DNA of 64,000 bases, taken from assembly GCF_018987265.1 (NCBI RefSeq), contig NZ_CP076854.1, positions 62,001 through 126,000 on the forward strand, given 5' to 3'. Of this stretch, positions 11,979-30,153 are shown in pieces. Position numbers and translations under genes: made by a program. The first letter of the stretch is position 1. Every line of letters begins with the position of its first letter. The notes under the pieces were generated by a model that saw nothing but the letters and a program-made list of their open reading frames with translations, was not told the DNA's origin and did not search any database. Source of the stretch: Rhizobium sp. WYJ-E13. GTDB taxonomy: Bacteria; Pseudomonadota; Alphaproteobacteria; Rhizobiales; Rhizobiaceae.

Positions 11979-14953
11979 TTACGCAGCGTCCCTTAGCCTA
12001 GCCGGAAGTCTGAGCGACCGGAAGCCTTCGGGCATCTGATGTTCCGCGTCCCAGGTGTAGATGCCGGTAAGGTTGATATGCTCCCAACTCAGAGGCGAGA
12101 CGTGCTTGAGCACATGATCAGGAATCTCGCGACGCGCTTTGCGTAAGTGGGTGATGGCCCGTTCGATATAGACCGTATTCCAGTGGACGATTGCGCTGAC
12201 GACAAGGTTGAGACCAGAGGCGCGGAACGCCTGGCTTTCGTACGACCGGTCGCGGATCTCGCCCCGCTCATGGAAGAAGACAGCGCGCTTCAGTTTATGG
12301 GGGGCCTCGCCCTTGTTGAGACCGGCTTGGCATCTTCGCCGTAGTGCCGGGCTTGAGTACCATTCGATCATGAAGAGCGAACGCTCAATCCGACCGAGTT
12401 CGCGGAGCGCCCTCGCCAGATGGCTTTGCTTTGGAGATGCGGACAGCTTCTTCAAGATCGTAGACGGCACCACGGACCGCGTCGTGATCGACGCCGCGAG
12501 ATGGAGCAGATCGTCCCAATGGTCGAGAATCAGGGTAGTGTTGATCGGCGCCCCGATATGGTTCGACAGGACCGGATATGCATCGCCCTTCTCAAACGTG
12601 TGGAACTTCCGGTCTTTGAGATTGCGCAGTCGCGGTGCGAACCGCTTGCCGATCAGGGCGAATAGCCCGAAGATGTGATCACTCGCGCCGCCCGTATCGG
12701 TAAAGTGTTCCTGGATCTCGAGGACCGTGTCCTGATCGAATAGTCCGTCAAGCACATAGGCCGCCTCGCTTTCGGTCGGACTGATGGGCAAAATGCTGAA
12801 GTAGCCGTATTGATCTGACAGATGGCTGTAGAATTTCGATCCGGGTTCGCTGCCGTAATGCAAATTGATGTCTCCGCGTTTTGCAGCTCGGTCGCTCGCT
12901 CGGAAGAATTGACCGTCTGAGGAAGATGTCGTGCCGTTGCCCCAAAGGCGGGAATGCGGATGGCGGGTGTGCGCATCGGTGATGCACGCCTGTGCCGCGC
13001 GATAGGTCTCTGACCGAGCATGGAAGGTGCGCATCCAGCCGATCTGGTGAGCGCTGATCCCCTTGGATGCGCCCGCCATTCGTTTCGGGCCGAGGTTGGT
13101 CGCATCCGCCAGCACGCCAGCCAACATCGCAGAGACATTTTTCGGGATGTCACCGGTGCGAACATGCGTGAAGTGATCCGCAAAGCCGGTCCATTCATGC
13201 ACTTCCCTTAACAAGTCGGGAACCTCGACCAACGGATACATGTCGCTGATCTCGGCATTCAGTTCCTCTGCTTCCACGGGGACTTCGCCGACGGTCGGTG
13301 TGACGATCAACGTTCCGGCCTCAAGACGAACTCCTTCGAGCTTTCCGGATCGTGCTCTGTGCGCCAGACGCTGCAGGTTGAACTCGAGCATCTGACAGGC
13401 TTCGGCAAGCCACTGTGCGCCGTCACCTTCGACCCCCAAACCGAGACGATCTTCTTCCTTCATCGCGATGAATGTCGACCGCGGCATCAGATGCTCGTCA
13501 ATCGGACGAAAAGATCGGCTGCCGTCGACCCAAATGTCCGCAGATCTAAGCCGGTCTCGCAAAACCGCTAGCGTGGCGATCTCGAAGAGACGGCGATCAG
13601 GTTTCCCTTGTTCGAAGATAAGCCGTCGATCGGTTTGGCTGAGGTGGGTGAGCGGCACGCGATCCGGAAGTGTCCGCCGCTTCTCGGCATAAAGCCGTTT
13701 CAGCAGCGCAATTGCCGCCAGAAGCGGGTCGTGAAGATACGCCGAGCGGAACGTGAAGGCCTGAAGGAACGCACCAGTGTATTTGTCGACGGTCGCATAC
13801 TGCTCGGCTGCCACGGACAACGGCGGTGCCTCGTTGTCGTCGACCATCGACTAAAGCTCAGGCTTCATCCGAAGCAGCCGGTCCCAGCCAACTCTTTGGT
13901 CGAGAACATCCAATGCGTTCCGACATAGTCGTTGGCGGATTGCAGTGCGGTGATCGTATCTAAAAACATGCGCAGCGCTTTGGCGATATTCGCTCTGCAG
14001 TCCATCTGTCGCTGCTTCTTTCGATTGTTGGCTTGCGAGAACAACTTGCCCATCAGTTTGATGAACATCGTTACCGCATCGTCCGTGAGCTTCTGGCAGA
14101 GCTTGATGACCTGAGCCACGATCAGAGCGTGGCGGCGGCTGGCGTTGAAGTCGTTGGCAAGCCAGGCCGGCGTTGCGTTGCCCTCCCGGATCATCTGGTC
14201 CCACCGTCCGGATGACACGCGCGCCTGCAGTTCCGGATCGATCTCCAGCCGACGCAGAAAAGCTATCCGCTCGGTCAGCCCGACGAGGTTCGCCGCAGCC
14301 GGCGCTTCTGGCGCCGAACGCAGCCAATGAAATCGCGTCTGGCCGATCGACGGGTCAACCTCTAACAGCCTATCCAGTGATTGAAGCCTATCGAGTGGGA
14401 TGTCTTCAATCAGGGTTTTTTCTGCCCGGCGCCGGGCTATGGCACGGCCGGCAAGGCCGATGCGTTCGATCGTGTCGATCGCCGGCAAAAGAGCTCCGCG
14501 TTCGCGAAACGTTGCGACAAGCGAACTGGCTATCACAGCACCGTCGTCGGACATGGTCGCCGCTTGAATTGCCGCCAATAGCGCGGCGCGGCGATCTTGC
14601 ACCGTCGCGCTTCTCGTATCGAGATACACCATTAGCCGCGCCATATGATCCCGACGGGTTTCTTCACGGCGTGCATAGAGGGCAAATTCGTCTGGGGCGG
14701 CGCCGATCTGATCAGCAACATATCTCAGCATCGCGCCAGGCGGAGTTTCTTCTGCTCCAAGCACTCGACCCGGGTATCGCATTAGACATAGCTGGATGGC
14801 AAAGCCGAGCCGATTGTGATTACGTCTCCGCAGTTCGATCTCCAGGCGATCCGCTAATGACAACGAATAGTGGCGGATCAAGCTGTCCTCGTCGACTGGG
14901 ATATCGACAAGCTTCCGTCGATCTTGATCTTTGAGAAGCTTGCGCTTTGCCAT
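11979..14953 (-). pseudogene. tnpA: Tn3-family transposase gene, inactivated
   Basis: It would encode about 990 residues from MAKRKLLKDQDRRKL (ATG 14953). The N-terminal DUF4158-type region and the C-terminal DDE transposase core are both recognisable (SAMLAGVLADATNLGPKRMA, LWGNGTTSSSDGQFF, HIGAPINTTLILDHW). Two lesions separate them: a one-base deletion near 13917-13922 (SANDYVG | NALDVLDQRVGW) and an in-frame TAG at 13851-13853 just before MVDDNEAPPL. Both halves are otherwise open. The element cannot move by itself unless helped by another copy. Confidence 0.85.
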
Positions 14954-15098
14954 CGCCCGACTCCATTCATGACCAATCTGCGTGAAGCGTTGTCGAGTCG
15001 GGCCGAACAGAGAAATCAAAACTGGCGCATGTCGATGGCAATCCACAGAGATCGGATGTTGCACATCCGATCTAAGGCATCGTTCCGGTTTCGTTCGA

Positions 15099-15343: not shown

Positions 15344-16372
15344 CTAGAGTGGGCGCCGTATAAACTTCGAAATCAACCCCACCAACCCTTCGCGGAATGA
15401 AAGCACGCAGCCAACGAATACGACACCCTGCACGACCGTCACCCATGCGCCCAAAGGTGCCAGGTAGTTCTGCATTGCGACCACAACCAAAGCTCCGGCT
15501 ACAGGTCCGAAAATCGTACCCAGGCCTCCGACTAGGGTCATCAACACCACCTCCCCCGAGGTAGACCAATGAATATCGGTCAGTGACGCCAGTTGAAAAA
15601 CGATGGCTTTCGTCGCACCAGCCAATCCGGCGAGTGTAGCAGAGAGAGCGAACATCAAAAGTTTGTACCGGTCGACGTCATAACCGAGGGAAATACAGCG
15701 CGGCTCGTTATCTCGAATAGCCTTGCACAACTGGCCGAAAGGCGAGTGCACGATACGATAGACGACACACAGGCCGGCAAGAAAAATGACAACCACCGCG
15801 ATATAGAGAACCCGATCGTTACCCAGATCGAAAATATTGAACAGGCGGCCGCGAGGCACCGACTGTATCCCGTCCTCGCCTCCGGTAAAACCAGGGGTCT
15901 GCAGCGCGAAGAAATAGAGCATCTGGGCAAGCGCCAGCGTGATCATCGCAAAGTAAATCCCCTGCCGCCGAATGGCGATCGCGCCAAAGACAAGCCCAAT
16001 AGCTGCCGCTACCATGGTCCCCGCTAGAATTGCCAGTTCGGGAGGAAGGTGCCAGGCTTTCGCGGAGTATGCGCTCACGTAGCTGGCGACCCCAAAAAAG
16101 GCCGCGTGACCGAAAGATAGCAACCCGCCAAAACCCAGGAGTAGATTGAAAGCCAGTGCGAAGAGCGCAAAACAAAGGACTTTCATGATGAAAATCGGAT
16201 ACGCGACGAACGGCGCAAGTGCCAGCACGATCGCCAATCCAAGGATGACGCCACGGTGAAGACGAGCGGTCTTTCTTTCCTCGTCGCGTGCGGAAGTTAT
16301 CGGCACGAATGCTGCCGGCGCGCTGGTGTCTGCCATGATGTTCCCCTTTTTTTGTAATGTGGCGCCGCTCAT
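15344..16372 (-). CDS. Branched-chain-type ABC transporter permease (LivM family)
   Basis: A 342-residue inner-membrane permease with about nine hydrophobic segments and the family core LLSFGHAAFFGVASYVSAY near residue 85 and GLGTIFGPVAGA near residue 290. Last gene of the operon; its ATG overlaps the LivH-type stop by 4 bp. In this context it probably imports an aromatic acid rather than leucine; Liv-type importers for protocatechuate (PcaMNVWX) and coumarate (CouPSTU) are known precedents. Confidence 0.9.
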   Translation of the reverse strand: MSGATLQKKGNIMADTSAPAAFVPITSARDEERKTARLHRGVILGLAIVLALAPFVAYPIFIMKVLCFALFALAFNLLLGFGGLLSFGHAAFFGVASYVSAYSAKAWHLPPELAILAGTMVAAAIGLVFGAIAIRRQGIYFAMITLALAQMLYFFALQTPGFTGGEDGIQSVPRGRLFNIFDLGNDRVLYIAVVVIFLAGLCVVYRIVHSPFGQLCKAIRDNEPRCISLGYDVDRYKLLMFALSATLAGLAGATKAIVFQLASLTDIHWSTSGEVVLMTLVGGLGTIFGPVAGALVVVAMQNYLAPLGAWVTVVQGVVFVGCVLSFREGLVGLISKFIRRPL

Positions 16373-17256
16373 GCGACGCGCCCGAACAGACCGGCCGGCT
16401 TCGCAAGCAAGACGATGACCATGATGGTGAAGATCACCGTTGCAGATCCCTCGGGATAGAAGACCTTGGTAAGCCCTTCGACCACACCCAGGCCAAAGCC
16501 AGTCACGATAGCGCCCATGATGGATCCCATTCCACCAATGACGACGACCGCGAACACGACGATGATGAGATCTCCACCCATGTTCGGATTGACGGAATAG
16601 ATCGGCGCTGCGAGTACGCCGGCAAATGCAGCGAGAGCCACGCCAAACCCGTAGGTTAACGTTACAAGCAGAGGCACATTAATGCCGAATGCCTGGGTCA
16701 ACGCCGGATCCTCCGTGGCCGCTCGCAGATTGGCTCCGAGTTTTGTCTTTTCGATCATGAACCAGGTTGCCAGGCAGACAACAAGCGAGATTGCGACAAC
16801 CCATCCGCGGTAGATCGGCAGGATCATGAAGCCGAGGTTCCAGGCTCCCTGTAACGCACGTGGAATTTGGTACGGAAGCCCCGTAGAACCGAACTCATTC
16901 CGGAAAAGACCCTGAACGATCAACGCAACACCGAACGTCAGCAACAACCCGTAGAGGTGATCGATATGAGCGATCCGGGCGATCAGCAGACGCTGAATCA
17001 GAATGCCAAAGGCCCCGACAACGAGTGGCGCGATTACGAGAGCCGCCCAGTAGTTGATACCCAGGTAATTCAAACAAATCCAGGCGACGAATGCTCCCAT
17101 CATATAGAGCGCGCCGTGAGCGAAATTGATAATGTTGAGCAAGCCAAAAATGATAGCGAGCCCGAGACTGAGAGTTGCATAGAAGGAACCGTTGATCAGA
17201 CCCAGGAGGAGCTGCCCGAGAAGAACTTGAGGCGGAATACCGAGAAGATCCTGCAT
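16369..17256 (-). CDS. Branched-chain-type ABC transporter permease (LivH family)
   Basis: A 295-residue permease, mostly hydrophobic, with NIINFAHGALYMMGAF around residues 40-55 and GGMGSIMGAIVTGFGLG near residue 250, both typical of LivH. Pairs with the LivM-type protein to form the membrane channel. Starts 4 bp after the LivF-type stop, so it is tightly within the operon. Confidence 0.9.
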   Translation of the reverse strand: MQDLLGIPPQVLLGQLLLGLINGSFYATLSLGLAIIFGLLNIINFAHGALYMMGAFVAWICLNYLGINYWAALVIAPLVVGAFGILIQRLLIARIAHIDHLYGLLLTFGVALIVQGLFRNEFGSTGLPYQIPRALQGAWNLGFMILPIYRGWVVAISLVVCLATWFMIEKTKLGANLRAATEDPALTQAFGINVPLLVTLTYGFGVALAAFAGVLAAPIYSVNPNMGGDLIIVVFAVVVIGGMGSIMGAIVTGFGLGVVEGLTKVFYPEGSATVIFTIMVIVLLAKPAGLFGRVA

Positions 17257-17259
17257 CGC

Positions 17260-18009
17260 CTACACTCCGAGATAGCTGTGAAGCTTGTTGACATTGACGG
17301 CAAGCTCGGCGTTCGGGATCATGTCAACCACATGCCCCTCCTCGACCACGTAGTGTCGATCCGCCAGTGTTGCCGCAAAATGGAAATTCTGCTCGACGAG
17401 AACGATGGTGTAGCCTTCGTTCTTAAGCTCTGTGATCGTTCTTCCAATTTGATCGATGATCACAGGGGCCAGCCCTTCGGTCGGTTCGTCGAGCAGCAAG
17501 AGCCGGGCGCCAGTACGAAGAATTCGTCCTATGGCAAGCATTTGCTGCTCGCCGCCTGAAAGCTTCTTCCCGTGACTGTTGATCCGCTCCTTGAGGTTTG
17601 GAAACATTGCGAAGACGCGTTCCGTGCTCATCCCGCCAGGTTTGACCTGCGGCGGCAGGAGAAGGTTCTCTTCCACCGACAATGAAGCGTAGATACCCCG
17701 ATCCTCAGGAACATAGCCGATCCCCAGTCTTGCAATTCGACGGGATGGGAGGCTGATGGTCTGCTGTCCTTCGAACAGGATGGAGCCGCGTCGTCGACCC
17801 AACATCCCCATGATAGCTTTCAACGTTGTGCTCTTGCCGGCGCCGTTTCTTCCGAGGAGGGTTACGACTTCGCCGGGCAAGACTTCAAAATTCATCCCGT
17901 GGAGAACGTGGCTCTCGCCATACCAGCCCTGGAGGCCGCTAACCTTGAGCAGAGGGGCAAGACTGGATTTTTGCGAACCGTTTAAAACCGAGGTGTTGTC
18001 AGTGGACAT
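17260..18009 (-). CDS. ABC transporter ATP-binding protein (LivF family)
   Basis: A 249-residue ATPase with Walker A GRNGAGKST (about residues 54-62), signature LSGGEQQML and Walker B LLLLDEPTEGL. The motif set IGYVPEDRGIYASLSVEENL is LivF-like. Overlaps the LivG-type gene end by 11 bp. Confidence 0.92.
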   Translation of the reverse strand: MSTDNTSVLNGSQKSSLAPLLKVSGLQGWYGESHVLHGMNFEVLPGEVVTLLGRNGAGKSTTLKAIMGMLGRRRGSILFEGQQTISLPSRRIARLGIGYVPEDRGIYASLSVEENLLLPPQVKPGGMSTERVFAMFPNLKERINSHGKKLSGGEQQMLAIGRILRTGARLLLLDEPTEGLAPVIIDQIGRTITELKNEGYTIVLVEQNFHFAATLADRHYVVEEGHVVDMIPNAELAVNVNKLHSYLGV

Positions 18010-18760
18010 GGCCGCCTCCCGAACCGATATAAGCCTCGATCACTCTTGGATCTTTCGAGACGGTCGCATAATCGCCTTCTGCGAGGATCTGGCCCCGCGC
18101 AAGGACGGTGATACGATCGGAGAGCGATGCAACGACGGAGAGATTGTGCTCGACCATCAACACTGTCCGATTGGCGGCAACACGTTTGATGAGCGCTTCG
18201 ATCCTCTGAATATCCTCCCGGCCAAGCCCCGCCATAGGCTCATCCAGCAGGAGCATTTCCGGATCAAGCGCGAGCGTCGTGGCGATCTCAAGGGCGCGTT
18301 TGCGCCCATAGGACAGCTCTCCAGCCGGAACTTCGGCGTAGGAGGTAAGACCGACTGCCTCGATCAGCCGCAGGGCTTCGTCATCGAGCTCCTCCAGTGT
18401 TTTCTCGGAGCGCCAGAAGTAGAAGGAGTCGCCGCGTTTGCGTTGCAGGGCCACGCGCACGTTCTCGCGTGCCGACAATTTGGGAAACACCGCGGAAATC
18501 TGAAACGAACGGACGAGTCCAAGCCTTGCGACCTCCGCAGGCTTCCTGCCGGTTACGTCCTTGCCATTATAAGTGATCGAGCCGCTTGTTGGCGTGTAGA
18601 ACTTTGTCAGCAGGTTGAAGCATGTTGTCTTGCCTGCGCCGTTCGGACCGATCAGGGCGTGTAAGGAACCACGCCGAACTTCCAGATTGACACCTTTGAC
18701 CGCGGAGAAGCCGGCAAACTCCTTCGTGAGGCCCGAGGTGGATAATATTATGTCGCTCAC
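17999..18760 (-). CDS. ABC transporter ATP-binding protein (LivG family)
   Basis: A 253-residue ATPase: Walker A GPNGAGKTT (about residues 38-46), FQISAVFPKLSARENV after the Q-loop, signature LSYGRKRALEIA and Walker B MLLLDEPMAGL. The signature lacks the common SGGQ but LSYG is usual in LivG. First transport gene after the aldehyde dehydrogenase, from which it is separated by 101 bp. Confidence 0.92.
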   Translation of the reverse strand: MSDIILSTSGLTKEFAGFSAVKGVNLEVRRGSLHALIGPNGAGKTTCFNLLTKFYTPTSGSITYNGKDVTGRKPAEVARLGLVRSFQISAVFPKLSARENVRVALQRKRGDSFYFWRSEKTLEELDDEALRLIEAVGLTSYAEVPAGELSYGRKRALEIATTLALDPEMLLLDEPMAGLGREDIQRIEALIKRVAANRTVLMVEHNLSVVASLSDRITVLARGQILAEGDYATVSKDPRVIEAYIGSGGGHVH

Positions 18761-18861
18761 GGATCACACTCCCGCCTCGTCGGCTCTGATTTCAAAACAG
18801 CTCTTCCCGCAATGCGGGATCGAAACGTCGACCCCCCCTTCGCTTTTCCGCCGGCCAGCAA

Positions 18862-20301
18862 CTACAGCGCCATCCGATGTGAGACGGTCTTGACATGCGT
18901 ATAGTGTGAAAGCCCCTCGGCTCCGCCTTCCCGCCCGTATCCACTGTCCTTTACGCCACCGAACGGGGTTTCCGCGACAGAGGCCTCCAACGTATTGATC
19001 GATACATTGCCTGCCTCGATACCGCTCGCAAGGCGATCGACATTGGCTGCGGAGTGCGTGAACCCATATGCTGCAAGACCGAAAGGAAGAGAATTCGCTT
19101 TCTCGATTGCTTCGTCAATCGATCCGACAGGATTGATCACGGCCAGAGGCCCAAAGGGTTCTTCTGACAGCACCCGTGCGTCGGGGGGTACGTCCGCAAG
19201 AACCGTCACGGGGAAGAAGTATCCCCGATTGGACGATTTCTCGCCACCGGCGAGAACCTTCGCGCCTTTTGACCGCGCGTCCTCCACGAGCGCCGTCAGC
19301 GCATCAATTCGGCGGTGGTTTGCGACAGGTCCCATCTGCGTGTTGGGATCGAAGCCATTCCCAATCGTCACTGCGCGCGCGCGCTCCGCGAAAGCAGCGG
19401 CAAAGGCCTCGTACAGGCGTTCCTGAACGAAGAACCGCGTCGGTGAGGTGCAAACCTGGCCAGCGTTTCTTGCCTTGCGCATTGCTGAAAGGTTGGCCGC
19501 TGCCACCGGATCGACGTCGTCGCAAACGATGACGGGAGCGTGCCCACCAAGTTCCATGAGCACGGGTTTGAGATTACGTGCGGCAAGTTCGGTCAGATGC
19601 TTGCCGACAGATGTCGAGCCCGTAAAGGCGATAAGGCCGGTCTGCTTCTGAGGAATGAGGTATTGTGATACTTCGGCGGGGACGCCGAAGACAAGGTTGA
19701 AAACGCCTCGGGGCAGCCCGGCATCGTGTAATGCCCTGGCGATATGGTAGGCTCCGGCCGGCGTTTCCTCTGCTGCCTTGATGATGATCGAGCACCCGGC
19801 CGCGAGAGCGCCGGCGATTTTCCGTGACGGCTGGCTCATCGGGAAATTCCAGGGCGAGAATGCCGCAACCATACCGACGGGCTCATGAACGACGATGTAG
19901 CGAATTCCGGGTTCGCTCGGAATCACCCGGCCGTAGGTACGCTGGGCCTCTCCGGCGTCCCATTCGAAAAACTCGCAGCCGCGAATGACTTCGAGGCGAG
20001 ACTCGGAAAGCGGCTTACCTTGCTCCATGGTGATGGCTGCGGCGATCTCTTCGATACGTTCCCGCATCAAGGCGGCCGCCTTCATCATGATTTGAGCCCT
20101 GTGCCGGGGGGCGGTTCGGCTCCAGACCTTGAAGCCGTGGTCTGCGGCATGAAGGGCGTCATCCAGATCAGCCTTGGCGGCGACCGGTAGCGCTCCAAGG
20201 ACCGCCTCGTCGGCGGGATTGAGCACCGGCACAGTGTCGGCCGTCTTGCGCCAACCACCATCGATGTAGAGGTGAAGGTCGGGATAAGCATACGCTTTCA
20301 T
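18862..20301 (-). CDS. NAD(P)-dependent aldehyde dehydrogenase
   Basis: A 479-residue enzyme of the succinate-semialdehyde/muconic-semialdehyde dehydrogenase type. Catalytic Cys284 lies in GQVCTSPTRFF and the general base Glu250 in LMELGG; the coenzyme-binding FTGSTSVGKHL is present. In this operon it most likely oxidises an aldehyde formed after ring cleavage, for example the semialdehyde carbon of 2-amino-3-carboxymuconate semialdehyde or a later aldehyde. It is between the aspartate-dehydrogenase-like gene and the Liv genes. The exact substrate cannot be told from sequence. Confidence 0.88.
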   Translation of the reverse strand: MKAYAYPDLHLYIDGGWRKTADTVPVLNPADEAVLGALPVAAKADLDDALHAADHGFKVWSRTAPRHRAQIMMKAAALMRERIEEIAAAITMEQGKPLSESRLEVIRGCEFFEWDAGEAQRTYGRVIPSEPGIRYIVVHEPVGMVAAFSPWNFPMSQPSRKIAGALAAGCSIIIKAAEETPAGAYHIARALHDAGLPRGVFNLVFGVPAEVSQYLIPQKQTGLIAFTGSTSVGKHLTELAARNLKPVLMELGGHAPVIVCDDVDPVAAANLSAMRKARNAGQVCTSPTRFFVQERLYEAFAAAFAERARAVTIGNGFDPNTQMGPVANHRRIDALTALVEDARSKGAKVLAGGEKSSNRGYFFPVTVLADVPPDARVLSEEPFGPLAVINPVGSIDEAIEKANSLPFGLAAYGFTHSAANVDRLASGIEAGNVSINTLEASVAETPFGGVKDSGYGREGGAEGLSHYTHVKTVSHRMAL

Positions 20302-20351
20302 TTCGGCTCCTAGAGTTGTTTGAGCACCGGATCATGGGTGCAAGAAACGGA

Positions 20352-20369
20352 CCCGACGCGAGCGTCGGG
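20352..20369. other. Perfect 18-bp palindrome between two operon genes
   Basis: CCCGACGC-GA-GCGTCGGG, in the 109-bp gap between the aspartate-dehydrogenase-like stop (20411) and the aldehyde dehydrogenase start (20301). The arms pair over 8 GC-rich bases. No T-run follows in the minus-strand direction, so it is not a standard terminator; an RNA processing or stability hairpin, or a protein site, are possible. Confidence 0.4.
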
Positions 20370-20410
20370 CGGATATGCGGGTCTGCTGCTAACTCGGAAG
20401 CGAGAAAGCC

Positions 20411-21226
20411 TTACAGGACGAACGGGAGGAACCTGCTCTCGACCAGGCGCACCAGTGAAAGCGCGGCAAGCTCGGATGATTTCGGGTTTGTCGCCAGCGG
20501 GCGGTTCTCGATCGATACGTTCATCGTGCCGAAATCTCCGCGGGCGAAAAGCTCGTGACGATTGCCCCTCGCGCCCGGATCTGCCACCAGCTCGACTTGG
20601 GTCTTGTCGAGGCCGAGGCCGGAAAGAGCAATGATTGCCGCCACATTGGCGTTCTGCGGGAACCGGGCTGCGGCGTCTCGCGCAGTCCCCGAGAAGAAGG
20701 TTTCGGAAACTCTGATATCATCGAGGTGTATCAGCCTCTCCGCTTCTGTTCCTTGCCATGCAGTCGGTGGCTTGACGATACGATGGATAACCTCATCAAG
20801 CGCGAGAACCGAGGCAGCCGCGACCGCGTCCACTCCCGCCAGTGCTCCAGGCGGGACCAAGAGCTGACTTCCATTCGTAGCTGCCGTCGAGACAAGGCGC
20901 GAGAGCAACTCGTCGTCACAAAATGCACTGGCGGATGCGATTATGACCGCCTTGGCATGCTTTAGTGCGGCTTCGCCCCATTCGCTGACAGCACCGCGGC
21001 CAGCAGCCTCTACGAGAAGATCAAGTGCCAGGTTCTCAAGGTGTGCGGGATCGGTGACAACAGCGGTGCCCGCAGGCACATTCTGAGCGTCTGCAGGGTC
21101 CTTCAGACAGATCACTGCGAAGGTGATTTGCTCGCCGCGGCGTTGGCGAACTAGCTCGGCAACTCGCTGATTGATGGCTCCCCAGCCGATGAAGCCAATC
21201 CGTAGGGGTCTATGAAGATGGGTCAT
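20411..21226 (-). CDS. Aspartate dehydrogenase-like NAD(P)-dependent enzyme
   Basis: A 271-residue protein of the NadX/L-aspartate dehydrogenase family: Rossmann motif GFIGWGAINQRVAELV at the N-terminus, LVEAAGRGAVSEWG in the middle and the C-terminal dimer region with SGLGLDKTQVELVADPGA. Family members deaminate aspartate or act on related amino/imino acids. No nadA or nadC is present, so NAD synthesis is unlikely here. Sitting between the ring-cleavage dioxygenase and the aldehyde dehydrogenase, it may deaminate the amino group of the ring-opened product; that is inference. Confidence 0.75.
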   Translation of the reverse strand: MTHLHRPLRIGFIGWGAINQRVAELVRQRRGEQITFAVICLKDPADAQNVPAGTAVVTDPAHLENLALDLLVEAAGRGAVSEWGEAALKHAKAVIIASASAFCDDELLSRLVSTAATNGSQLLVPPGALAGVDAVAAASVLALDEVIHRIVKPPTAWQGTEAERLIHLDDIRVSETFFSGTARDAAARFPQNANVAAIIALSGLGLDKTQVELVADPGARGNRHELFARGDFGTMNVSIENRPLATNPKSSELAALSLVRLVESRFLPFVL

Positions 21227-21313
21227 CGTTCTCTTGATCCTGACAATATGGGTGAGCTCTTGTGAACAAGCTGCCGAACATTCGAAGGCTCACGGGGAGC
21301 ACGTTCGTCGGGT

Positions 21314-21874
<561 letters not shown>

Positions 21875-21917
21875 TCATTTGTTGTCTCCGCTTCACGCGG
21901 ATTTCAGGATTGCCAGT

Positions 21918-22871
21918 TCAAAGCTTCAGCCCGCTCGCATCAAACGCCGCGCGAGTGTTTGCTTTTTCTGCTTCGGTGAGTTCGAGCATGGGAGGCCGCA
22001 CGCGCCCTCCGACCTGGCCAAGAAGTTGCTGCCAGTATTTCTGGTGCGAGTGCGGCTTCTCGGCAGGCCGCGTCTTACGCAGGGCGTCGCGCACCGGCTG
22101 CAGGCTGTCGCGGACCGTACGGGCCTTTTCAGCTTCGCCCGCGAAGGCGAGATCTGTGTATTCGCGCATTCGCAAATCGTTCGCGGTTTGGATAAGGTAA
22201 GGCGGCGACGAGCAAAGATAGAGCTGCCATCCAAGTTCGAGAATGTTGTCCAACCATTCTTCCTCGGAAGCCGTGCTGATCAGGATACGGTCCGACGCGA
22301 GTCTCGTCAGTTCCGCATACATGGGCCTTGGCACGCTATACTTGATCGCGACCACGTTCTCGATATCGGCGAGACGATTGCAAAGCTCCGGCGAAAGCAG
22401 GTATCCACTGTCCGGATGGCTCCAGAGAGCGATACCGATATCGACCTTGTCAGCGATCGCCTTGTAATATTCATAAACCGTCTGTTCCTGCTCCTTGAAG
22501 AAGTGAAGCACTGGCGCGTGAACGACGATGTAATCAGCACCGATCTTTTGTGCGTGCTTCGCCAAATCGATTACGACGTCCATGTTCTGATCAGAGCATG
22601 ACATGATTGTTGAAGCCCGGTCGCCCGCCGCCTTGACCGCAAGCTCGAAGTTTCGTTTGCGCTCATCGAGCGACATCGAAAAGAACTCACCCTGCTTGCC
22701 GGCAATGAAGAAGCCATCGATCTTCAGATCGTCAATCCAGTGCTGAATGTTTTTGCGGAAGCCGTCTTCGTCAACCTCGAGCTCTTCCGTAAAAGGCATG
22801 AGGGCCGCAGCCCAGATACCCTTCATATGCTGGCGCGCGTATGCCTTTGCGTCCTTCTTAGCGTACTTCAT
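21918..22871 (-). CDS. Dihydrodipicolinate synthase-family lyase/aldolase
   Basis: A 317-residue class I aldolase-fold protein. The Schiff-base lysine is in VVAIKYSVPRPMY, about residue 185. The pyruvate-carboxylate loop reads GKQGEFFSMS instead of the usual GTTGES, and the DHDPS tyrosine region reads IALWSHPDSGY, so it is not a lysine-biosynthesis enzyme. Related proteins (NahE, PhdJ) split aromatic-pathway pyruvate adducts. First gene of the eight-gene operon, divergent from a LysR gene. Start at 22871 has AAGGGA upstream; 31 residues of open frame upstream are not similar to the family. Confidence 0.8.
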   Translation of the reverse strand: MKYAKKDAKAYARQHMKGIWAAALMPFTEELEVDEDGFRKNIQHWIDDLKIDGFFIAGKQGEFFSMSLDERKRNFELAVKAAGDRASTIMSCSDQNMDVVIDLAKHAQKIGADYIVVHAPVLHFFKEQEQTVYEYYKAIADKVDIGIALWSHPDSGYLLSPELCNRLADIENVVAIKYSVPRPMYAELTRLASDRILISTASEEEWLDNILELGWQLYLCSSPPYLIQTANDLRMREYTDLAFAGEAEKARTVRDSLQPVRDALRKTRPAEKPHSHQKYWQQLLGQVGGRVRPPMLELTEAEKANTRAAFDASGLKL

Positions 22872-23182
22872 GAATTCTGGTCCCTTATAGGCTGTCCAAC
22901 CTCTTGTTCCTCGAGGAAGACATGGCTCTTGCTGCACAACGCAATCGGGCATGTCCGGCCACATTCTGCGCAGTCACGGCGGCCTTCAGGGCCGGTCGGA
23001 CTGGTTTCGGAATGTTGGTTTACCTTATGCGAGGTGACTGACCGTTCGGTTGGCTCAACTGTCATAGCGGGTGTGAGCCTCCATCTCCGATCTGTTGCAA
23101 GGATGATGACAGGGAGCGGCCTATACAACAATGCAGGGTATTGTTATTAATTAAGATGATTTCCATATAAATAGAGTCACTT
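22872..23182. promoter_or_regulatory. Divergent control region between lyase operon and LysR gene
   Basis: These 311 bp hold the promoters of the eight-gene minus-strand operon and of the LysR gene. The final 45 bp before the LysR start are strongly AT-rich (TTATTAATTAAGATGAT near 23144-23160) and contain the palindrome TTAATTAA. LysR sites of T-N11-A form can be drawn in several places but none stands out enough to claim. Confidence 0.5.
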
Positions 23183-24079
23183 ATGGCGATTACCCTTCGA
23201 CAGATCGATGCGTTTCTGGCAGTTGCGGCACAGGGGACATTTACGAAAGCAGCAGAAATGCTGCGGGTCGCCCAACCCGCGCTCTCTCAGCTTGTTCGGG
23301 AGCTTGAAGCCGAACTTGGAGTGCGGCTCCTCGACAGAACGACCCGGCGCGTCGAACTCACCGAGGCCGGGCGGGAGTTTCAGGGGGCAGCAAGCAAAAT
23401 CAGGGAGGATCTGGATCTTGCGGTTGAAAACGCTGGGCAGCTGGCCGAGCGTCGGCGTGGGCGGATCATCGTTGCAGCACCGCCGCTGCTGGCTGCGGTT
23501 CTTTTGCCTTCGGCGATCGCCGAGCTTCAAAGAAGCTATCCTGGACTGACGGTCAGTATCATGGACGCCCGCAACGACATCATCATCGAAGCTGTCCGCA
23601 ACGGACAGGTCGATTGCGGCATCGGCACGTTTTCGGCGCTCGAAGGCAATATTGAGCGTTCCTCGTTGGCGCGCGATCAGCTGCTGTTGTTCTGCCCGGC
23701 AGAAAGCCCGTTCGCGAGACAAGACACTGTGACCTGGAGCCAGTTGGCAAATCAGCAGATTGTCACGCTCTCCCGAGAGAGCGCCATCCGACTTCTCGTC
23801 GAGGTTGGTTTCGAGAACGCCCAAATCGAACTCAACCCAGCGTATGAGGTCACCCAAATCACGACAGCGCTTGCGCTGGTGACGGCCGGCCTGGGGGTCG
23901 CCGTGCTTCCGACATACGCTCGAACTGTTGCAAATCCGAAGATCGTCGTCAGGCCGCTCCTCGAGCCAATCTCTCGAGACATCATCATGATACGCCCCAG
24001 TGGACGATCGATGTCCCCTGCCCTCGCGAGCTTCGAAGGCATCGTTAAACGACATACCAGGCAGATTGTGCCGGACTGA
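23183..24079 (+). CDS. LysR-family regulator of the catabolic operon
   Basis: A 298-residue LysR protein; helix-turn-helix in residues 3-60 (LRQIDAFLAVAAQGTFTKAA, QPALSQLVRELE) and a complete effector domain. Divergent from the lyase/dioxygenase/transport operon and convergent with the nitroreductase operon, a position fitting a regulator of one or both. CbnR/NbaR-type regulators of aromatic catabolism are of this class. Effector unknown. Confidence 0.88.
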   Translation: MAITLRQIDAFLAVAAQGTFTKAAEMLRVAQPALSQLVRELEAELGVRLLDRTTRRVELTEAGREFQGAASKIREDLDLAVENAGQLAERRRGRIIVAAPPLLAAVLLPSAIAELQRSYPGLTVSIMDARNDIIIEAVRNGQVDCGIGTFSALEGNIERSSLARDQLLLFCPAESPFARQDTVTWSQLANQQIVTLSRESAIRLLVEVGFENAQIELNPAYEVTQITTALALVTAGLGVAVLPTYARTVANPKIVVRPLLEPISRDIIMIRPSGRSMSPALASFEGIVKRHTRQIVPD

Positions 24080-24138
24080 GCACACTTTTAACGCCGAGAA
24101 CAGATTAGAGTGGCGTGCAACGGTTCCCGGCATGACAT

Positions 24139-24786
24139 CTACTCCCTCGGCGTCCCCTTGGTGTCGTAAGGAGGAACCGGAACGACGAGCCGGTCGGACG
24201 AGCGACAGTAGTTCGGTCCACCCAAGCGCCCGATCGGCTGGTAACGCTCGACACGCACGCGCATCTTTTGCTCGTCCAGGAGGTCATCACGGAAATACAT
24301 GCCGACGATCTCTCCAAGGATGATCGAACGGAATTTTGCGTATTCCAGCACCTTGAAAAGCCGGCACTCCCAAGCGATCGGTGCCTCCTCGATCCGGGGC
24401 ACCGATATCTGGTCGGAAGGAGCAAGTCGCAGCCCGACCTCGTCGGCCTCACAGACGTGCGATGGATGATCCGTACCGCAGCGAACCGCTCGCTCGAGTA
24501 TGGGTTCGTCGACCATGTTCACCACGAACTCACCGCGAGCCTCGATATTGGCTAATGTGTCCTTGCGCTCTCCTGGACGGTGGCTCTCGTCGCCATAGAG
24601 ATCGACCCCAATCATCAGAAGTGCCGGTTCTTCACTTAGATAATTAAAGGCACTGAACGGAGCAGCATTACAATGACCGTCTTCGCGCAGACTGGTTACC
24701 AGACCGATGGGACGCGGACCGACGCTTCCGGTAATCAACCAATAGCGCTGCCGCGTCGTGAGATCGCGAAGAGAGACATGAGTCAT
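24139..24786 (-). CDS. Flavin reductase-fold protein, candidate nitrobenzoate nitroreductase (NbaA-like)
   Basis: A 215-residue FMN-binding split-barrel protein (flavin reductase/DIM6 family): TGSVGPRPIGLVTSLREDG near the N-terminus, NAAPFSAFNYLSEEPALL, and the C-terminal RLGGPNYCR. The 2-nitrobenzoate nitroreductase NbaA/OnbA belongs to this fold and size class. Its ATG overlaps the FMN-reductase stop (ATGA), after the DUF4863 gene. On these grounds I propose reduction of a nitrobenzoate to the hydroxylaminobenzoate. The fold also includes many plain flavin reductases, so the role is inferred. Confidence 0.65.
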   Translation of the reverse strand: MTHVSLRDLTTRQRYWLITGSVGPRPIGLVTSLREDGHCNAAPFSAFNYLSEEPALLMIGVDLYGDESHRPGERKDTLANIEARGEFVVNMVDEPILERAVRCGTDHPSHVCEADEVGLRLAPSDQISVPRIEEAPIAWECRLFKVLEYAKFRSIILGEIVGMYFRDDLLDEQKMRVRVERYQPIGRLGGPNYCRSSDRLVVPVPPYDTKGTPRE

Positions 24787-25409
24787 CTGACAGCCTCGCG
24801 GAAGTTTGCCAGTTGCTGGGCAAAAACGCCGGCAAGCCGGTGAAGGAAGTCAGTATTGGCACCCCCGACTAGCTCGCCATTCGCGAAAGCTCTTTGAGCA
24901 TTCGGGATCGCCAGATCCTCAGGAAAAACCGTAGCCCCCATCTTGCTCAGGATCGCCCGTAAGTGCCCAATCGCGCGAATTCCGCCAAAAGGACCGATCG
25001 ACGTTCCGACGATCAGCGATGGCTTGAGCCTGAACGGTTCAAGAGGTGCCATTCCGTCGCCAGGCCGAGAGCACCAATCCAATGTGTTCTTCAGCAAAGG
25101 AGTGACGGATCCATTGTACTCCGGGCAGGCGAACAGGAGGCCATCATGCTCCTTGATGATGCGCCGTAGCGAAAGCACCTGTGAGGGAACGCCATCTTTG
25201 CTCTCAAGATCACCGTCATAGATCGGAAACGGATAGTCGCGCAGATTGATTTCCCGCACGTCCACGCCTTGTGACCTGAGCGCCTCAGCTGCAATTCCGA
25301 GAAGGACTGAATTCCACGATCCCGCCCGGGTGCTGCCAGAAAAGGCCAATACGCGCGCGAGTGCCCCATCAGCCGGTGCTCTACCGGTGATCGTCTCAAT
25401 GTTCGTCAT
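24783..25409 (-). CDS. NADPH-dependent FMN reductase
   Basis: A 208-residue flavodoxin-like reductase with the FMN phosphate loop GSTRAGSWNSVLL (about residues 25-37) and CPEYNGSVTPLLKNTLDW (about residues 100-117), the ArsH/SsuE-like pattern. It probably supplies reduced flavin to the neighbouring split-barrel protein or itself acts on the nitro group. Overlaps the genes on both sides by 4-14 bp, so it is translationally coupled. Confidence 0.85.
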   Translation of the reverse strand: MTNIETITGRAPADGALARVLAFSGSTRAGSWNSVLLGIAAEALRSQGVDVREINLRDYPFPIYDGDLESKDGVPSQVLSLRRIIKEHDGLLFACPEYNGSVTPLLKNTLDWCSRPGDGMAPLEPFRLKPSLIVGTSIGPFGGIRAIGHLRAILSKMGATVFPEDLAIPNAQRAFANGELVGGANTDFLHRLAGVFAQQLANFREAVR

Positions 25410-25902
25410 GATATTCGATCGCTCCCTTCGGCAACAGGAAAATGAAGGTGCAAGCGCCGCCGGTTACGGTCGGGTAGTGGCTGGTACCGGGCGCAAACAC
25501 TTTCCAGCCCTCTCCCTTCCCGCAGAACTGCCCCTCAGGATCGACGGGCTGGATCATGTTGATCTCGCCGAGCGGATGGGTGTGGAAGTTGCCCTTCACA
25601 TTTTTCAGCTTTGCGCTCTCGACGACGAAGTCGTGGTGTCCGTCGGCAACGACACCAAGGCGCCCGCGGCAATAGTCGGGACCGTCAATGATCTTGTAGC
25701 AGGCCCATTGCTCGTCAATTCCGGTCCGAAGAAGCCGCTTCATCTCCTGAAAACTCTCGGTATGAGGACCGAATACGTCATTCAGGCGGGCCTCAAGTTC
25801 CTGGTCGAGTGCACTCTCTCCAATGAAGCTGATAAGCTGTTCGAGGTGCCGGATCAGTTCCGGTTTGTGTTTGCCCGTGGGAAGGTCTGTTTCATCAATC
25901 AT
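25396..25902 (-). CDS. DUF4863 protein, hydroxylaminobenzoate lyase/mutase-like (PnbB/NbaB type)
   Basis: A 168-residue protein of the DUF4863 family, whose known members include 4-hydroxylaminobenzoate lyase (PnbB, giving protocatechuate and ammonia) and the related 2-hydroxylaminobenzoate mutase (NbaB, giving 3-hydroxyanthranilate). Conserved-looking metal/active-site stretches are GNFHTHPLGEINMI and APGTSHYPTVTGG. Start chosen at 25902, with AGGAGA 8 bases upstream. First gene of the reductive operon. The co-resident 3-hydroxyanthranilate-type dioxygenase favours the mutase reading. Confidence 0.72.
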   Translation of the reverse strand: MIDETDLPTGKHKPELIRHLEQLISFIGESALDQELEARLNDVFGPHTESFQEMKRLLRTGIDEQWACYKIIDGPDYCRGRLGVVADGHHDFVVESAKLKNVKGNFHTHPLGEINMIQPVDPEGQFCGKGEGWKVFAPGTSHYPTVTGGACTFIFLLPKGAIEYHDEH

Positions 25903-26110
25903 CTCTGTTCTCCTCTTCGGTTTTTCCGGTCTGCCGCGCCGGATCCCCATGATGGTATTGAGATGACAGCCGAGATTTTGCGCCGGATTGATCCACTTGT
26001 TGCTGAATTGATATGAAGTGCGGCAAGCGGCCTGAAATTTTGGAAAGGCCGTTGCACTGCCGCCGTTCCCCTGCCTTCATCGAAGGATCAAATAAAAAAG
26101 AGGGGTTCCC
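25903..26110. promoter_or_regulatory. Divergent promoter region: reductive operon and binding-protein gene
   Basis: These 208 bp lie between the DUF4863 gene (-) and the Liv-type binding-protein gene (+). AT-rich TCAAATAAAAAAGAGGGGTT at about 26088-26107 directly precedes the plus-strand start and holds its ribosome site. Confidence 0.5.
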
Positions 26111-27316
26111 ATGCGTAAGCTTGCTACAGCTTTGTTGGCATTCACGGCTTTGAGCTGCACGAATGCATTCGCAGAAATATCGAAGAACACGGTCCGGATT
26201 GGCGTGCTGACCGATTATACCGGCATGTTCGCGGGCCTGTCCGGGCCGGGCGGCGAAATTGCTGCGCGGATGGCAGTCGAGGATTACGGTAGTAAAGTCG
26301 CAGGCGCACCGATCGAAGTCATTTCCGCCGACCATCAAAACAAGGCGGACCTTGGTTCGGCGCTCGTCAGGCGCTGGTATGATGAAGAAGGCGTCGACCT
26401 TGTCATGGACGTGCCAAACTCTTCGGTGGCACTCGCCGTACAATCGATCGCCAACGAGCGCCATAAGCTGGTGATTTATGCTGGCGCCGGTACTGCGGAT
26501 CTGACCGGAAAGGCGTGCATGCCGACGGGATTCCAATGGGTATGGGACACCTACTCTGTAGCCATTTCCACTGGTCGCGCGATGCTGGATGAGGGCCTTA
26601 AGAACTGGTACATCATCGCCGCCGACTATGCGTTTGGGCAGACGATGACGTCCGACATTACCAAGATCGTCGAAGGCCGTGGAGGAAAAATCGTCGGCAC
26701 GGTGAAGCACCCGCTTAATTCTCCGGATTTGTCCTCTTTCATTCTGCAGGCACAAGGAGCGAGTCCAGACGTGATCGCGCTTGCGAATGGGGGCGCGGAT
26801 ACAATCAATACGGTCAAGCAGTTCGCCGAGTTCGGCGGCACTTCCAGCGGTGTCAAGCTTGCGGGTCTTGCGGTCTTTATCTCGGACATCCACGGTATCG
26901 GTCTCGAAAGCGCCCAGGGGATGCGGCTGACCACAGGCTTCTATTGGGATCGAACCGACGAGACGCGCGCCTGGTCCAAGCGCTTTTTCGAGAAACACGG
27001 ATCCATGCCGACTATGGCCCAGGCGGGAGTCTATTCGGCCGTTACCCACTACCTGCGGGCCGTGGAGGCCTTGAAGGACGACGATCCGGTCAAGGTCGCA
27101 GAACAGATGCGCAAGACGAAAGTGAACGACGTCTTCACGAAGGACGGCTTCATTCGAGAAGATGGCCGCTTGGTTCACGACATGTACCTGGTCGAGGTGA
27201 AGAAGCCTGACGAGGTCCGCTATCCCTGGGACTATTACAAGGTCCTCTCCACCATACCGGCACAAGATACCGTACGACCGCTCGCAGAAAGCGCCTGCCC
27301 ATTGGTAAAAAAGTAG
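26111..27316 (+). CDS. Liv-type ABC transporter substrate-binding protein
   Basis: A 401-residue periplasmic type I binding protein with a signal peptide (MRKLATALLAFTALSCTNAF, cleavage after AFA near residue 22). The mature start ISKNTVRIGVLTDYTGMF and GAPIEVISADHQNKADLG are typical of the branched-chain amino acid/aromatic acid binding family (Peripla_BP_6). It is the only binding protein near the LivGFHM genes, which lack one in their own operon, so they likely work together. Divergent from the reductive operon and followed by an AraC gene. Confidence 0.9.
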   Translation: MRKLATALLAFTALSCTNAFAEISKNTVRIGVLTDYTGMFAGLSGPGGEIAARMAVEDYGSKVAGAPIEVISADHQNKADLGSALVRRWYDEEGVDLVMDVPNSSVALAVQSIANERHKLVIYAGAGTADLTGKACMPTGFQWVWDTYSVAISTGRAMLDEGLKNWYIIAADYAFGQTMTSDITKIVEGRGGKIVGTVKHPLNSPDLSSFILQAQGASPDVIALANGGADTINTVKQFAEFGGTSSGVKLAGLAVFISDIHGIGLESAQGMRLTTGFYWDRTDETRAWSKRFFEKHGSMPTMAQAGVYSAVTHYLRAVEALKDDDPVKVAEQMRKTKVNDVFTKDGFIREDGRLVHDMYLVEVKKPDEVRYPWDYYKVLSTIPAQDTVRPLAESACPLVKK

Positions 27317-27432
27317 GGCCTTTACCAACGCGACGCTCGTTCGACCTCGTTATGCAGCGACGGCGAAGCGATCTTGCCGTCTCTGGACGACGTGATATCC
27401 TCTCCGACGTCGGATTTTCTGGCGGGGGCAAC

Positions 27433-28326
27433 ATGATATCGCGTGAGGAGCTGCCGAAGAGAGAGGGCGTGGAGCTTTTGGACTGGGCGGGAGTCGATGG
27501 CTCTTGGCCTATGCCGGTGGCAATTTGGGACGCCCCGAAAGGCTTCAACACCTGCACTCGCCCCGACCATCAGCCTTGCCACGTCATTGCCGTGCGTTTG
27601 TCCGGTGCGCTTGTCGAGCGGGTGCGTCCCGACGCCTTTAAGTCCGAGCGCTTGCGGCCACGAGGGTTTTCGGTTCACCCAGCAGGGCGCGAACTCAGGT
27701 TTGTGGCTTCGTCCGCGATACGGTTTGCGCATCTTTACGTAAGCCAGGCTTTTCTTCAGGATATATACGGTAAAACAACGACTTCCGGCTCACCAGACGC
27801 TGCTCTCGTTCGCAGTGACAGGGTGATGTACCTTGATGCCGAAATGAGTAGCCAGCTCGACGCGTATGTCCATCGAGCGTTTCAGCGCAGCGATCCACCG
27901 TCGAAGCTCGAAATGGAAAGTCGTGCTAATCTGATCGCTTTAAGATTGCTGCGATATAAATCAATGGAACCGCTTTCTTCGTCCCAAAGCGAAAGCAATC
28001 TGGCGCCATGGCAATTACGGCGGGTGTGCAACCATCTTGAAGCGAACCTTGATCGTACGGTCCGGCTTACGGAATTGGCGGAATTGATCGGGATCTCCAA
28101 GGAACATCTCTGTCGCGCGTTCCATCTGACTACAGGCAGGCCTCCTCTGAGGTGGCATTTGGAAAAGCGGATCGAGCGCGCTTGTGAACTCCTGGCCAGG
28201 AACCAATCAACACTCACAAGCATCGCGCAGGATGTCGGCTACTCTGGCCAAAGCTCTTTCGGGACAGCATTCAAAGAATTGATGGGGATGACGCCTGATC
28301 AGTATCGACGTTTAAGACAAAACTGA
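27433..28326 (+). CDS. AraC-family transcriptional regulator
   Basis: A 297-residue regulator. The C-terminal 100 residues carry two helix-turn-helix motifs: VRLTELAELIGISKEHLCRA and LTSIAQDVGYSGQSSFGTAF. The N-terminal part is poorly conserved. I take the ATG at 27433, preceded by GGCGGGGG; an in-frame start at 27352 adds 27 residues. It lies after the binding-protein gene within the catabolic island and is a likely activator of its genes. Confidence 0.85.
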   Translation: MISREELPKREGVELLDWAGVDGSWPMPVAIWDAPKGFNTCTRPDHQPCHVIAVRLSGALVERVRPDAFKSERLRPRGFSVHPAGRELRFVASSAIRFAHLYVSQAFLQDIYGKTTTSGSPDAALVRSDRVMYLDAEMSSQLDAYVHRAFQRSDPPSKLEMESRANLIALRLLRYKSMEPLSSSQSESNLAPWQLRRVCNHLEANLDRTVRLTELAELIGISKEHLCRAFHLTTGRPPLRWHLEKRIERACELLARNQSTLTSIAQDVGYSGQSSFGTAFKELMGMTPDQYRRLRQN

Positions 28327-28737: not shown

Positions 28738-30153
28738 TCACGCGGCGCGGGGTGTTTCGTCGTTCTCATGATTGTCGTTGGCCAGGCCTGGATACCACTG
28801 CCGGAAGGTCGAGTGCAGTGAGCCGTCGAGGGTCTGTGTTCGGGTTTGCAGCAGAAGATGCGCACCGGTCCTGCTCCATTGCATCTGTTGCTTCTTGGCA
28901 AAACGCTTGGAGATAACGGCGTTGACGGTCGCCTCAACGAAGGCCGAGGAGATGCGCTCTCCAGAGCGATAGCGCTCGCCGTAATTGATCAGGCTCGCGC
29001 TGTTGGAGGCAATGTAGGCCTGGAACTCTCCGATCGCCGTCAGGAACTTGCGCATGTTCGGATAGTCCGTCTCGGTTCCTTCCGCATCGAATTGCAGGTC
29101 GGCAATTTCATCCCGGGCACGATAGCTATTGCCATGCCACAGATACCATTTGATCTTGCGCAGAGTTTCGAGCATAGCCTGTCCAGCCTGCTCGTTGTGG
29201 TTTTCGAGCCCCTGGGCGAACTGGCGAAGGACCGTGATGCGCACGGTGATATGGAACCAGTCGAGGACATGCTCGCTCGCCGGTGCGATCATCTCGGCGA
29301 GCGAGCGCACTTCTTCGCCACCGTCGGTGATGAAGGTGATATCCTAATTGGCCTGAACACCCTGCTTCTTGAGGTGATCGAGGATGCGCCGCTGCGGCCT
29401 GCGGTCATAGCCATGGACGAAACCGATGTATCGCGGATCGCCGTCTTCGGGCAGCGAACGGCCGACAATCAGCTCGAAATTCTTCTTCCGGTCGTTGCGG
29501 TCGCGGATGTATCCGCCATCCAGGCCGATGACGATGCGGCCATCCGGAATGGGCAGGTTCATCCAGTCGCGCGGGCAGGCATCCTGCATGAAGGACACCC
29601 GCTCTTCCGTCAGTTCCCGCTCGATCCGGCACGCGGTGCGCAGCGCATGCTGCCGGACTGTGGTGGCGTTGGCGCCGCAATCAATCGGCAGCACGTCGGC
29701 CAGTAGTTCGGCCGCGGCGGCGTAGGGCACGAGTGAGGCCCACCGGGTCTCCAGATAAAGGCGTTCAGGTGCAATGTGGTCAGGGATCAGTTTCCGTAGA
29801 GGTGAGATCGTTGCTGGGCCGTTCCCTCCGGCCGTCCGTGGCAAGCAATAGCGCGGGCTCTTCAGCCGGATGTCGCCGAACAGCGTATGGAAGGTGACGG
29901 GATAACTTCCCTTGCTGCGCAGACGGCAACCATCCAGATCGCGGTTTTCCCTGAGCCACAATTCCACCTGCGTCTCCACCATCGCCTGCTGCAACTTGGC
30001 TAGCAGGGTCTTCGCCTCCGACAATGACAGTCCGAGATCCTCGGCGCCTTTCGTCACCTTCGCCAAATCCGCAACGGTCTCGGTCGCGATCGTCTCGCCG
30101 TCACCATCCATCATCTGCAATACCAACCGCGCCCGCATGTCGTCTTCCCGCAT
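28738..30153 (-). pseudogene. ISKra4-family transposase, interrupted by a stop codon
   Basis: About 470 residues with the ISKra4 hallmarks IVIGLDGGYIRDRN, KKNFELIVGRS, DITFITDGGEEVR and EHVLDWFHITVRITVL. An in-frame TAG at 29344-29346 follows GVQAN; relatives have Gln there (NQ-ITF), so a single C-to-T change explains it. Both halves remain open. The frame also stays open for about 30 codons upstream of the first ATG, so the true N-terminus may be a little longer. Confidence 0.85.

Follow-up and report, generated by a model that had tools for sequence, protein, structure and literature searches.

A rhizobial gene island with a nitrobenzoate-type front end and a DHDPS-family module that probably replaces the ACMS decarboxylase route

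A 64,000-nucleotide stretch of the genome of Rhizobium sp. WYJ-E13 (C2:62001-126000, hereafter the window; the genome comprises 6.9 Mb in 3 contigs) contains, between positions 15344 and 28326, an island of fourteen genes, all of which are intact frames according to the open reading frame (ORF) listing and family matches. It combines genes of the 2-nitrobenzoate degradation type, leading to 2-amino-3-carboxymuconate semialdehyde (ACMS), with a gene of the dihydrodipicolinate synthase (DHDPS) superfamily (21918-22871), which is located directly before the gene of 3-hydroxyanthranilate 3,4-dioxygenase (HAO) and was left unnamed in the original prediction made from the sequence alone. The replacement of ACMS decarboxylase (ACMSD) and the meta pathway by a DHDPS module is well supported by genomic evidence, and this apparent replacement, consisting of the DHDPS-family enzyme, aspartate dehydrogenase (AspDH) and an aldehyde dehydrogenase (ALDH), has a much broader distribution than the nitrobenzoate genes of the island. 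The best explanation overall, which we hold tentatively, is an island for 2-nitrobenzoate or a close analogue with a DHDPS-type cleavage of ACMS.

In the nba and onb clusters of Pseudomonas KU-7, Cupriavidus ST-14 and Paraburkholderia terrae KU-15, the NbaA, NbaB and NbaC chemistry leading to ACMS is common with the island. Genes for identical steps as far as ACMS are present in the onb cluster of Cupriavidus ST-14 (PMC5817917) and in the nba cluster of P. terrae KU-15, listed as nbaFCTAREHGIJDB (PMC9302171). Unlike these clusters, the island is without ACMSD, AMSDH, deaminase and NbaG-J type genes and instead has the DHDPS-family enzyme, AspDH, an ALDH similar to succinate-semialdehyde dehydrogenase (SSADH) and a Liv-type importer, the latter being also found in Polaromonas. 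The non-canonical composition claimed in the original prediction was borne out, and ACMSD had no match in the window at 1e-10; the same was true of RidA and DmpG, and the sole match of the AMSDH query in the window was the SSADH-like ALDH (31%). A search of the genome for ACMSD, proposed as a check in the original prediction, gave only 31% and 27% matches, the same query matching the full-length ACMSDs of four other Alphaproteobacteria at 55-61%, and the DmpG query gave only a 30% match. The possibility of an ordinary nba cluster whose lower pathway is encoded at another site of the genome was rejected, since ACMSD and DmpG were not found. Of the NbaE-J lower meta pathway, RidA and DmpG are lacking in the window, and DmpG, the one gene of this set that was searched genome-wide, is lacking in the genome. 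Thus, the absence of ACMSD and deaminase stated in the original prediction stands for ACMSD in both window and genome and for the deaminase (RidA) in the window; the lower pathway is not simply missing, as the DHDPS gene, AspDH and ALDH look like its conserved replacement.

The distribution of these genes was analysed in an even sample of 289 Alphaproteobacteria, including the genome of WYJ-E13 itself. Strong HAO matches (E < 1e-30; 12 weaker of the 38 listed were dropped, and 31 were over the Pfam cut-off) were present in 26 genomes, the DHDPS subfamily in 18 and ACMSD in 5. Among the 26 HAO genomes, 17 contained the DHDPS gene, 4 contained ACMSD, none had both and 5 had neither; HAO was lacking in one further genome with the DHDPS gene (G371) and in one with ACMSD (G373). 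The association between HAO and DHDPS (Fisher 4.6e-20, uncorrected for kinship) involves 17 genomes that span 12 families. HAO adjoins ACMSD in all four genomes with both genes, and is located at most 5 kb from the DHDPS gene in 12 of the 17, the two being on different contigs in the other five. All ten DHDPS stretches of at least 8 kb (L117-L126) carry HAO and either the ALDH or a molybdenum-containing aldehyde oxidoreductase, and none carries ACMSD; the remaining one, on a contig of 4 kb (L127), has the DHDPS gene but no HAO, ALDH or Mo-oxidoreductase. Conversely, the DHDPS gene was found in none of the four ACMSD stretches, and ACMSD in none of 48 further genomes carrying the DHDPS gene, where it was sought with the query that had given matches in the sample of 289.

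A scan with the DHDPS-family alignment, one genome per species, yielded 284 relatives, of which the 80 closest were examined; two of these loci (L086 and L092) come from one metagenome-assembled genome, and several are on short contigs. HAO was found near the DHDPS gene in 76 of the 80 loci and AspDH within 10 kb in 56, while ACMSD, RidA, DmpG and AMSDH were near it in none. The SSADH-like ALDH was present in 48 loci, the molybdenum-binding subunit of the aldehyde oxidoreductase in 25, neither in 7 and both in 0, at thresholds of 60% and 48% identity, respectively; at 50%, both are present in a single locus (L072). For the Mo protein, the highest-scoring model was that of the glyceraldehyde dehydrogenase large subunit (605 bits, under the cut-off of 790), suggesting that one aldehyde oxidant was seemingly swapped for another. 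When these loci were clustered together with five plasmid loci (85 in total), an LivH-type permease was present in 69, a LysR gene in 61 and an alpha/beta hydrolase in 57. The genes, their families, their conserved linkage and the mutual exclusion with ACMSD are thus matters of direct observation. Two loci encode a Mo-binding aldehyde-oxidoreductase-type subunit (L012, 10142-12427; L013, 8701-10980) whose neighbouring genes include no annotated small or medium subunit. In Paenochrobactrum gallinarii (L065, G472) the module is without an adjoining HAO, which is on another contig, and the AspDH frame contains one in-frame TGA; this module is perhaps decaying.

The DHDPS-superfamily protein (minus strand; the start at 22871 was set by homologues, the frame being open to 22964) matches PF00701 with 128 bits and belongs to a separate, tight subfamily found next to HAO. 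It has the domain, the Schiff-base lysine and the GxxGE motif of its superfamily, which includes N-acetylneuraminate lyase (NAL), DapA and the hydratase-aldolases NahE and PhdJ. The lysine motif AIKYS, which aligns with the lysine stretch of the lyases, is present in 96 of 96 subfamily members, and in all 96 GKQGE replaces the usual carboxylate-binding motif. The extra lysine of this motif would suit a substrate with an additional carboxylate, although this is a guess. NAL and DapA are the nearest among the best 60 of 90 solved relatives.

The HAO of the island (21314-21865, minus strand; NbaC type) scored above the cut-offs of NF009763 (280 against 220 bits) and TIGR03037 (266 against 146), and all ten residues compared with 1yfu, which we take to be the metal and substrate residues, are kept. 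In a midpoint-rooted tree of 48 HAO rows, which included 21 of the 80 loci, one clade (100/96) united every one of the 37 DHDPS-type rows with a single other row, and none of the six ACMSD-type rows fell within it. An HAO from a genome without a match to either the DHDPS or the ACMSD query (L115, G355) belongs to this clade.

AspDH (20411-21226, minus strand) was recognised by PF01958 (Asp_DH_C, 111.5 bits) and NF009828 (256.7 against 177 bits), and matches the solved 2dc1 at 1.4e-29. It is similar to NadX in its domains, its curated family score and a conserved C-terminal motif common with 2dc1, but differs from it in its genomic setting, which is that of aromatic catabolism. The ALDH (18862-20301, minus strand), whose catalytic Cys and Glu motifs are present, is nearest to SSADH and KGSADH, with 421.5 bits against TIGR01780 (succinate-semialdehyde dehydrogenase), not reaching the cut-off of 646.35; on TIGR03216 (2-hydroxymuconic/2-aminomuconic semialdehyde dehydrogenase) it scored 300.2 bits, far under the cut-off of 693.25. 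The genome also encodes a methylmalonate/malonate-semialdehyde dehydrogenase (MMSDH; 655.8 against 448.5 bits), which is a common enzyme: of 14 control genomes, 5 have one that exceeds this cut-off.

From these assignments we infer all reactions past HAO, as well as the substrate and the cargo of the importer. The island would import 2-nitrobenzoate or a close analogue, which NbaA together with the FMN reductase might convert to 2-hydroxylaminobenzoate and NbaB to 3-hydroxyanthranilate, whose ring would be opened by HAO to form ACMS, HOOC-C(NH2)=C(COOH)-CH=CH-CHO. The DHDPS-family enzyme, by means of its Schiff-base lysine, may add water onto C4 of ACMS and split the C3-C4 bond, producing iminosuccinate and a C3 aldehyde, either malondialdehyde or, if the aldehyde is oxidised first, malonate semialdehyde. 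If the lysine formed its imine with the aldehyde at C6, C4 would become susceptible to water and the amino group would stay with the four-carbon fragment; enzymes of the DHDPS superfamily usually form the imine at C2. The atoms balance, C7N of ACMS being equal to C4N of iminosuccinate plus C3. Iminosuccinate is the compound that aspartate dehydrogenase reduces, so the AspDH of the island would form L-aspartate and the nitro nitrogen would be retained as an amino acid. The C3 aldehyde would be oxidised by the SSADH-like enzyme, or by the Mo aldehyde oxidoreductase in relatives, and malonate semialdehyde might be converted to acetyl-CoA, with the MMSDH of the same genome performing the last step. 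Compared with the meta-cleavage of 3-hydroxyanthranilate in kynurenine metabolism, the HAO step and the ACMS intermediate are in common, but ACMSD and the 2-aminomuconate branch would be replaced, with aspartate and acetyl-CoA as the proposed products. No description of a route from ACMS via a DHDPS-family enzyme was found in the open-access literature, most subscription papers and all preprints being outside the search.

Several points weigh against this DHDPS-type cleavage. We know of no activity for this DHDPS subfamily, and NahE, the chemical model, was not among the best 60 of the 90 solved relatives. The HxPxLxF stretch is without Tyr in 95 of 96 members (that of L127 has one), its register relative to NAL being uncertain; the site tyrosine of NAL and DapA is seemingly not kept, and therefore ordinary aldolase chemistry cannot be assumed. 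HAO is not near the DHDPS gene in 4 of the 80 loci, being elsewhere in 3 of those 4 genomes. AspDH is not near it in 24 of the 80 loci (12 of the 59 long ones), and lies inside just 5 of the 10 longer DHDPS stretches of the class sample. In that sample AspDH occurs in 15 of 18 DHDPS genomes, but also in all 4 genomes that combine HAO with ACMSD and in 4 of the 5 HAO genomes of neither type; one ACMSD genome (G322) has two AspDH-like genes, at distances of about 9 and 16 kb from its HAO gene. Across genomes, AspDH is present in 77 of the 289 and is associated with DHDPS (Fisher 3e-7), but this association fails to separate the pathway types, because ACMSD-type HAO genomes also have AspDH; it was dropped as evidence, only local linkage being able to separate them. 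All 12 long loci without a nearby AspDH have AspDH elsewhere in the genome, one with an in-frame stop. Iminosuccinate hydrolyses spontaneously to oxaloacetate, and AspDH would therefore be the most dispensable member of the module.

An unlikely alternative is that the DHDPS protein is a second ACMS decarboxylase, the ALDH oxidising 2-aminomuconate semialdehyde, with the later genes elsewhere and AspDH, for example, reducing a muconate imine. The DHDPS gene does occupy the place of ACMSD beside HAO, and its reaction could be decarboxylation, a further point against the proposed cleavage, as KdgD of the same superfamily decarboxylates. On the other hand, the ALDH resembles SSADH and KGSADH and reaches only 300 bits on the muconic-semialdehyde model, whose cut-off is 693, the deaminase and DmpG are near none of the 80 loci and DmpG was not found in the genome, and the linkage of AspDH in 56 of 80 loci would stay unexplained. 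To a similar degree improbable is another reaction on ACMS or oxidised ACMS, for instance that of a deaminating hydratase giving oxaloacetate-type products via the C2 imine, with AspDH serving general nitrogen handling. The departure of the active site from known superfamily aldolases would agree with this, as would the loose linkage of AspDH and its frequent occurrence in all types of HAO genome; yet only 77 of 289 genomes have any AspDH, compared with 56 of 80 loci with AspDH within 10 kb.

The front end of the island consists of an NbaB-like protein (25396-25902; here NbaB), an NAD(P)H-dependent FMN reductase (24783-25409; PF03358, FMN_red) and an NbaA-like protein (24139-24786; here NbaA), all on the minus strand. 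NbaB is a PnbB/DUF4863-type hydroxylaminobenzoate mutase (PF16155, 146 bits against a cut-off of 26.9) whose start at 25902 was set by homologues, the frame being open to 25950; NbaA is a split-barrel nitroreductase (PF01613, flavin-reductase-like). NbaB shares 66-77% identity with its counterparts in sister islands, and 58% and 45% with the DUF4863 proteins of Polaromonas JS666 (L014) and of a Cupriavidus pauculus plasmid (L015), respectively, whose clusters hold HAO and ACMSD. The identity to the proteins of these two clusters is 62-63% for NbaA and 45-51% for the FMN reductase, and both clusters have an FMN reductase, as the island does. These sequence identities indicate an nba-type front end, with the FMN reductase as its ordinary companion, and for this half of the island the nitrobenzoate reading of the original prediction is probably correct. 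Within the genus, six further proteins of the PnbB family are only 30-33% identical to NbaB, and a seventh weak match (L008) gave no alignment to it. One genome of the genus (G093; L006 and L009) has a PnbB-type and an NbaB-type gene together.

The sequence similarities of NbaB and NbaA favour 2-nitrobenzoate over 4-nitrobenzoate. A front-end substrate other than 2-nitrobenzoate itself, namely a substituted 2-nitrobenzoate, or 4-nitrobenzoate via 4-amino-3-hydroxybenzoate, is more doubtful than the two alternatives considered above: sequence cannot reveal a substrate, but NbaB sides with the ACMSD-type 2-nitrobenzoate-like clusters and not with the six PnbB-type proteins, and the scores and retained residues of HAO are those of a true 3-hydroxyanthranilate enzyme. 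HAO and AspDH both occur in routes of NAD synthesis, so that HAO might make quinolinate and AspDH feed NAD synthesis; this was rejected as very improbable, given that the importer, ALDH, catabolic regulators and nitroreductase share the cluster and the DHDPS gene would be without a role.

Other front ends are joined to the same module. Kynureninase is located with it in Ensifer PDNC004 and two Stappia loci, and 15 of the 85 loci (L035, L037, L040, L044-L050, L054, L057, L060, L064 and L073) encode, before the HAO module, a relative of 1H-3-hydroxy-4-oxoquinoline 2,4-dioxygenase (3ibt, 5e-81 for one representative), an MHPCO-type flavin monooxygenase and a formamidase-like hydrolase, which matches kynurenine formamidase at 9e-14 and the lipase 9n8r more closely (1e-27). 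These enzymes may convert a hydroxylated quinolone, such as xanthurenate, to 3-hydroxyanthranilate, perhaps by an undescribed pathway. Since the NbaA/NbaB, kynureninase and quinolone-type front ends all appear to lead to 3-hydroxyanthranilate, on which HAO acts, the unknown steps come after HAO.

The gene order of the island is identical on plasmids, typed as conjugative, of Rhizobium bangladeshense PLR8-1a and Sinorhizobium mexicanum ITTG R7, and is likewise kept in Rhizobium sp. P32RR-XVIII (L026); because of this recurrence, the island is more than a chance assembly. NbaA/NbaB is found beside the DHDPS module in 1 of the 80 genome loci and in 2 of 7 plasmid regions, the latter having been chosen from hit lists and being non-random. 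According to their alignment, an AT-rich block (23121-23156), upstream of the DHDPS gene toward lysR, is conserved in all four sister islands and is possibly a LysR site. In R. bangladeshense (L010, 7386-8489), the annotation merges the frames of NbaB and the FMN reductase into a single 1104-base gene, and the NbaB frame diverges from its relatives close to its end.

The island appears, from the layout of ORFs, to form four transcription units. The minus-strand unit 25902-24139 contains nbaB, the FMN reductase gene and nbaA with overlapping gene ends, and the minus-strand unit 22871-15344 contains the genes for the DHDPS-family enzyme, HAO, AspDH, ALDH, LivG, LivF, LivH and LivM; the LysR gene (23183-24079, plus strand, assigned by family matches) lies between them. 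At the right end, on the plus strand, are the genes of the Liv-type binding protein (26111-27316; PF13458) and of an AraC regulator (27433-28326; a family match, the frame being open from 27352 and the start placed at the onset of similarity). The ATPases LivG (17999-18760) and LivF (17260-18009) and the permeases LivH (16369-17256) and LivM (15344-16372), all on the minus strand, were named after their matches to proteins annotated as branched-chain amino acid ABC components in sister islands, and not via Pfam. The enzymes, binding protein and regulators named in the original prediction are all open frames with family matches. Liv-type uptake, also put forward there as a special feature, was rejected as a mark of novelty, since the ACMSD-containing nba-type cluster of Polaromonas JS666 carries such an importer too; for the onb cluster of Cupriavidus ST-14, the accessible part of the description mentions no Liv importer (PMC5817917).

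With a G+C content of 57.0%, the island differs little from its left (58.3%) and right (60.3%) flanks. Directly to the left (11979-15064, minus strand), two neighbouring ORFs match the Tn3-family transposase DDE domain and DUF4158, and are possibly one interrupted transposase gene. To the right, two ORFs (28738-30153, minus strand) had no Pfam match; they may resemble insertion-sequence transposases.

3-Hydroxyanthranilate and ACMS are central to both tryptophan/kynurenine breakdown and 2-nitrobenzoate degradation. The routes known to us by which ACMS is processed further pass through ACMSD or quinolinate. It is possible, as a broader proposal that we hold more loosely than that for the island, that many Alphaproteobacteria degrade 3-hydroxyanthranilate originating from kynurenine, xanthurenate-like quinolones or 2-nitrobenzoate via a DHDPS-type split of ACMS to iminosuccinate and a C3 dialdehyde, the amino group leaving as aspartate, and that the nitrobenzoate island originated on plasmids of rhizobia when nbaAB was added to this pre-existing module. 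If so, 17 of the 26 HAO-bearing Alphaproteobacteria of the sample would use another route, the DHDPS superfamily would gain a new reaction, and a testable role would be available for genes annotated as dihydrodipicolinate synthase family protein, aspartate dehydrogenase and succinate-semialdehyde dehydrogenase.

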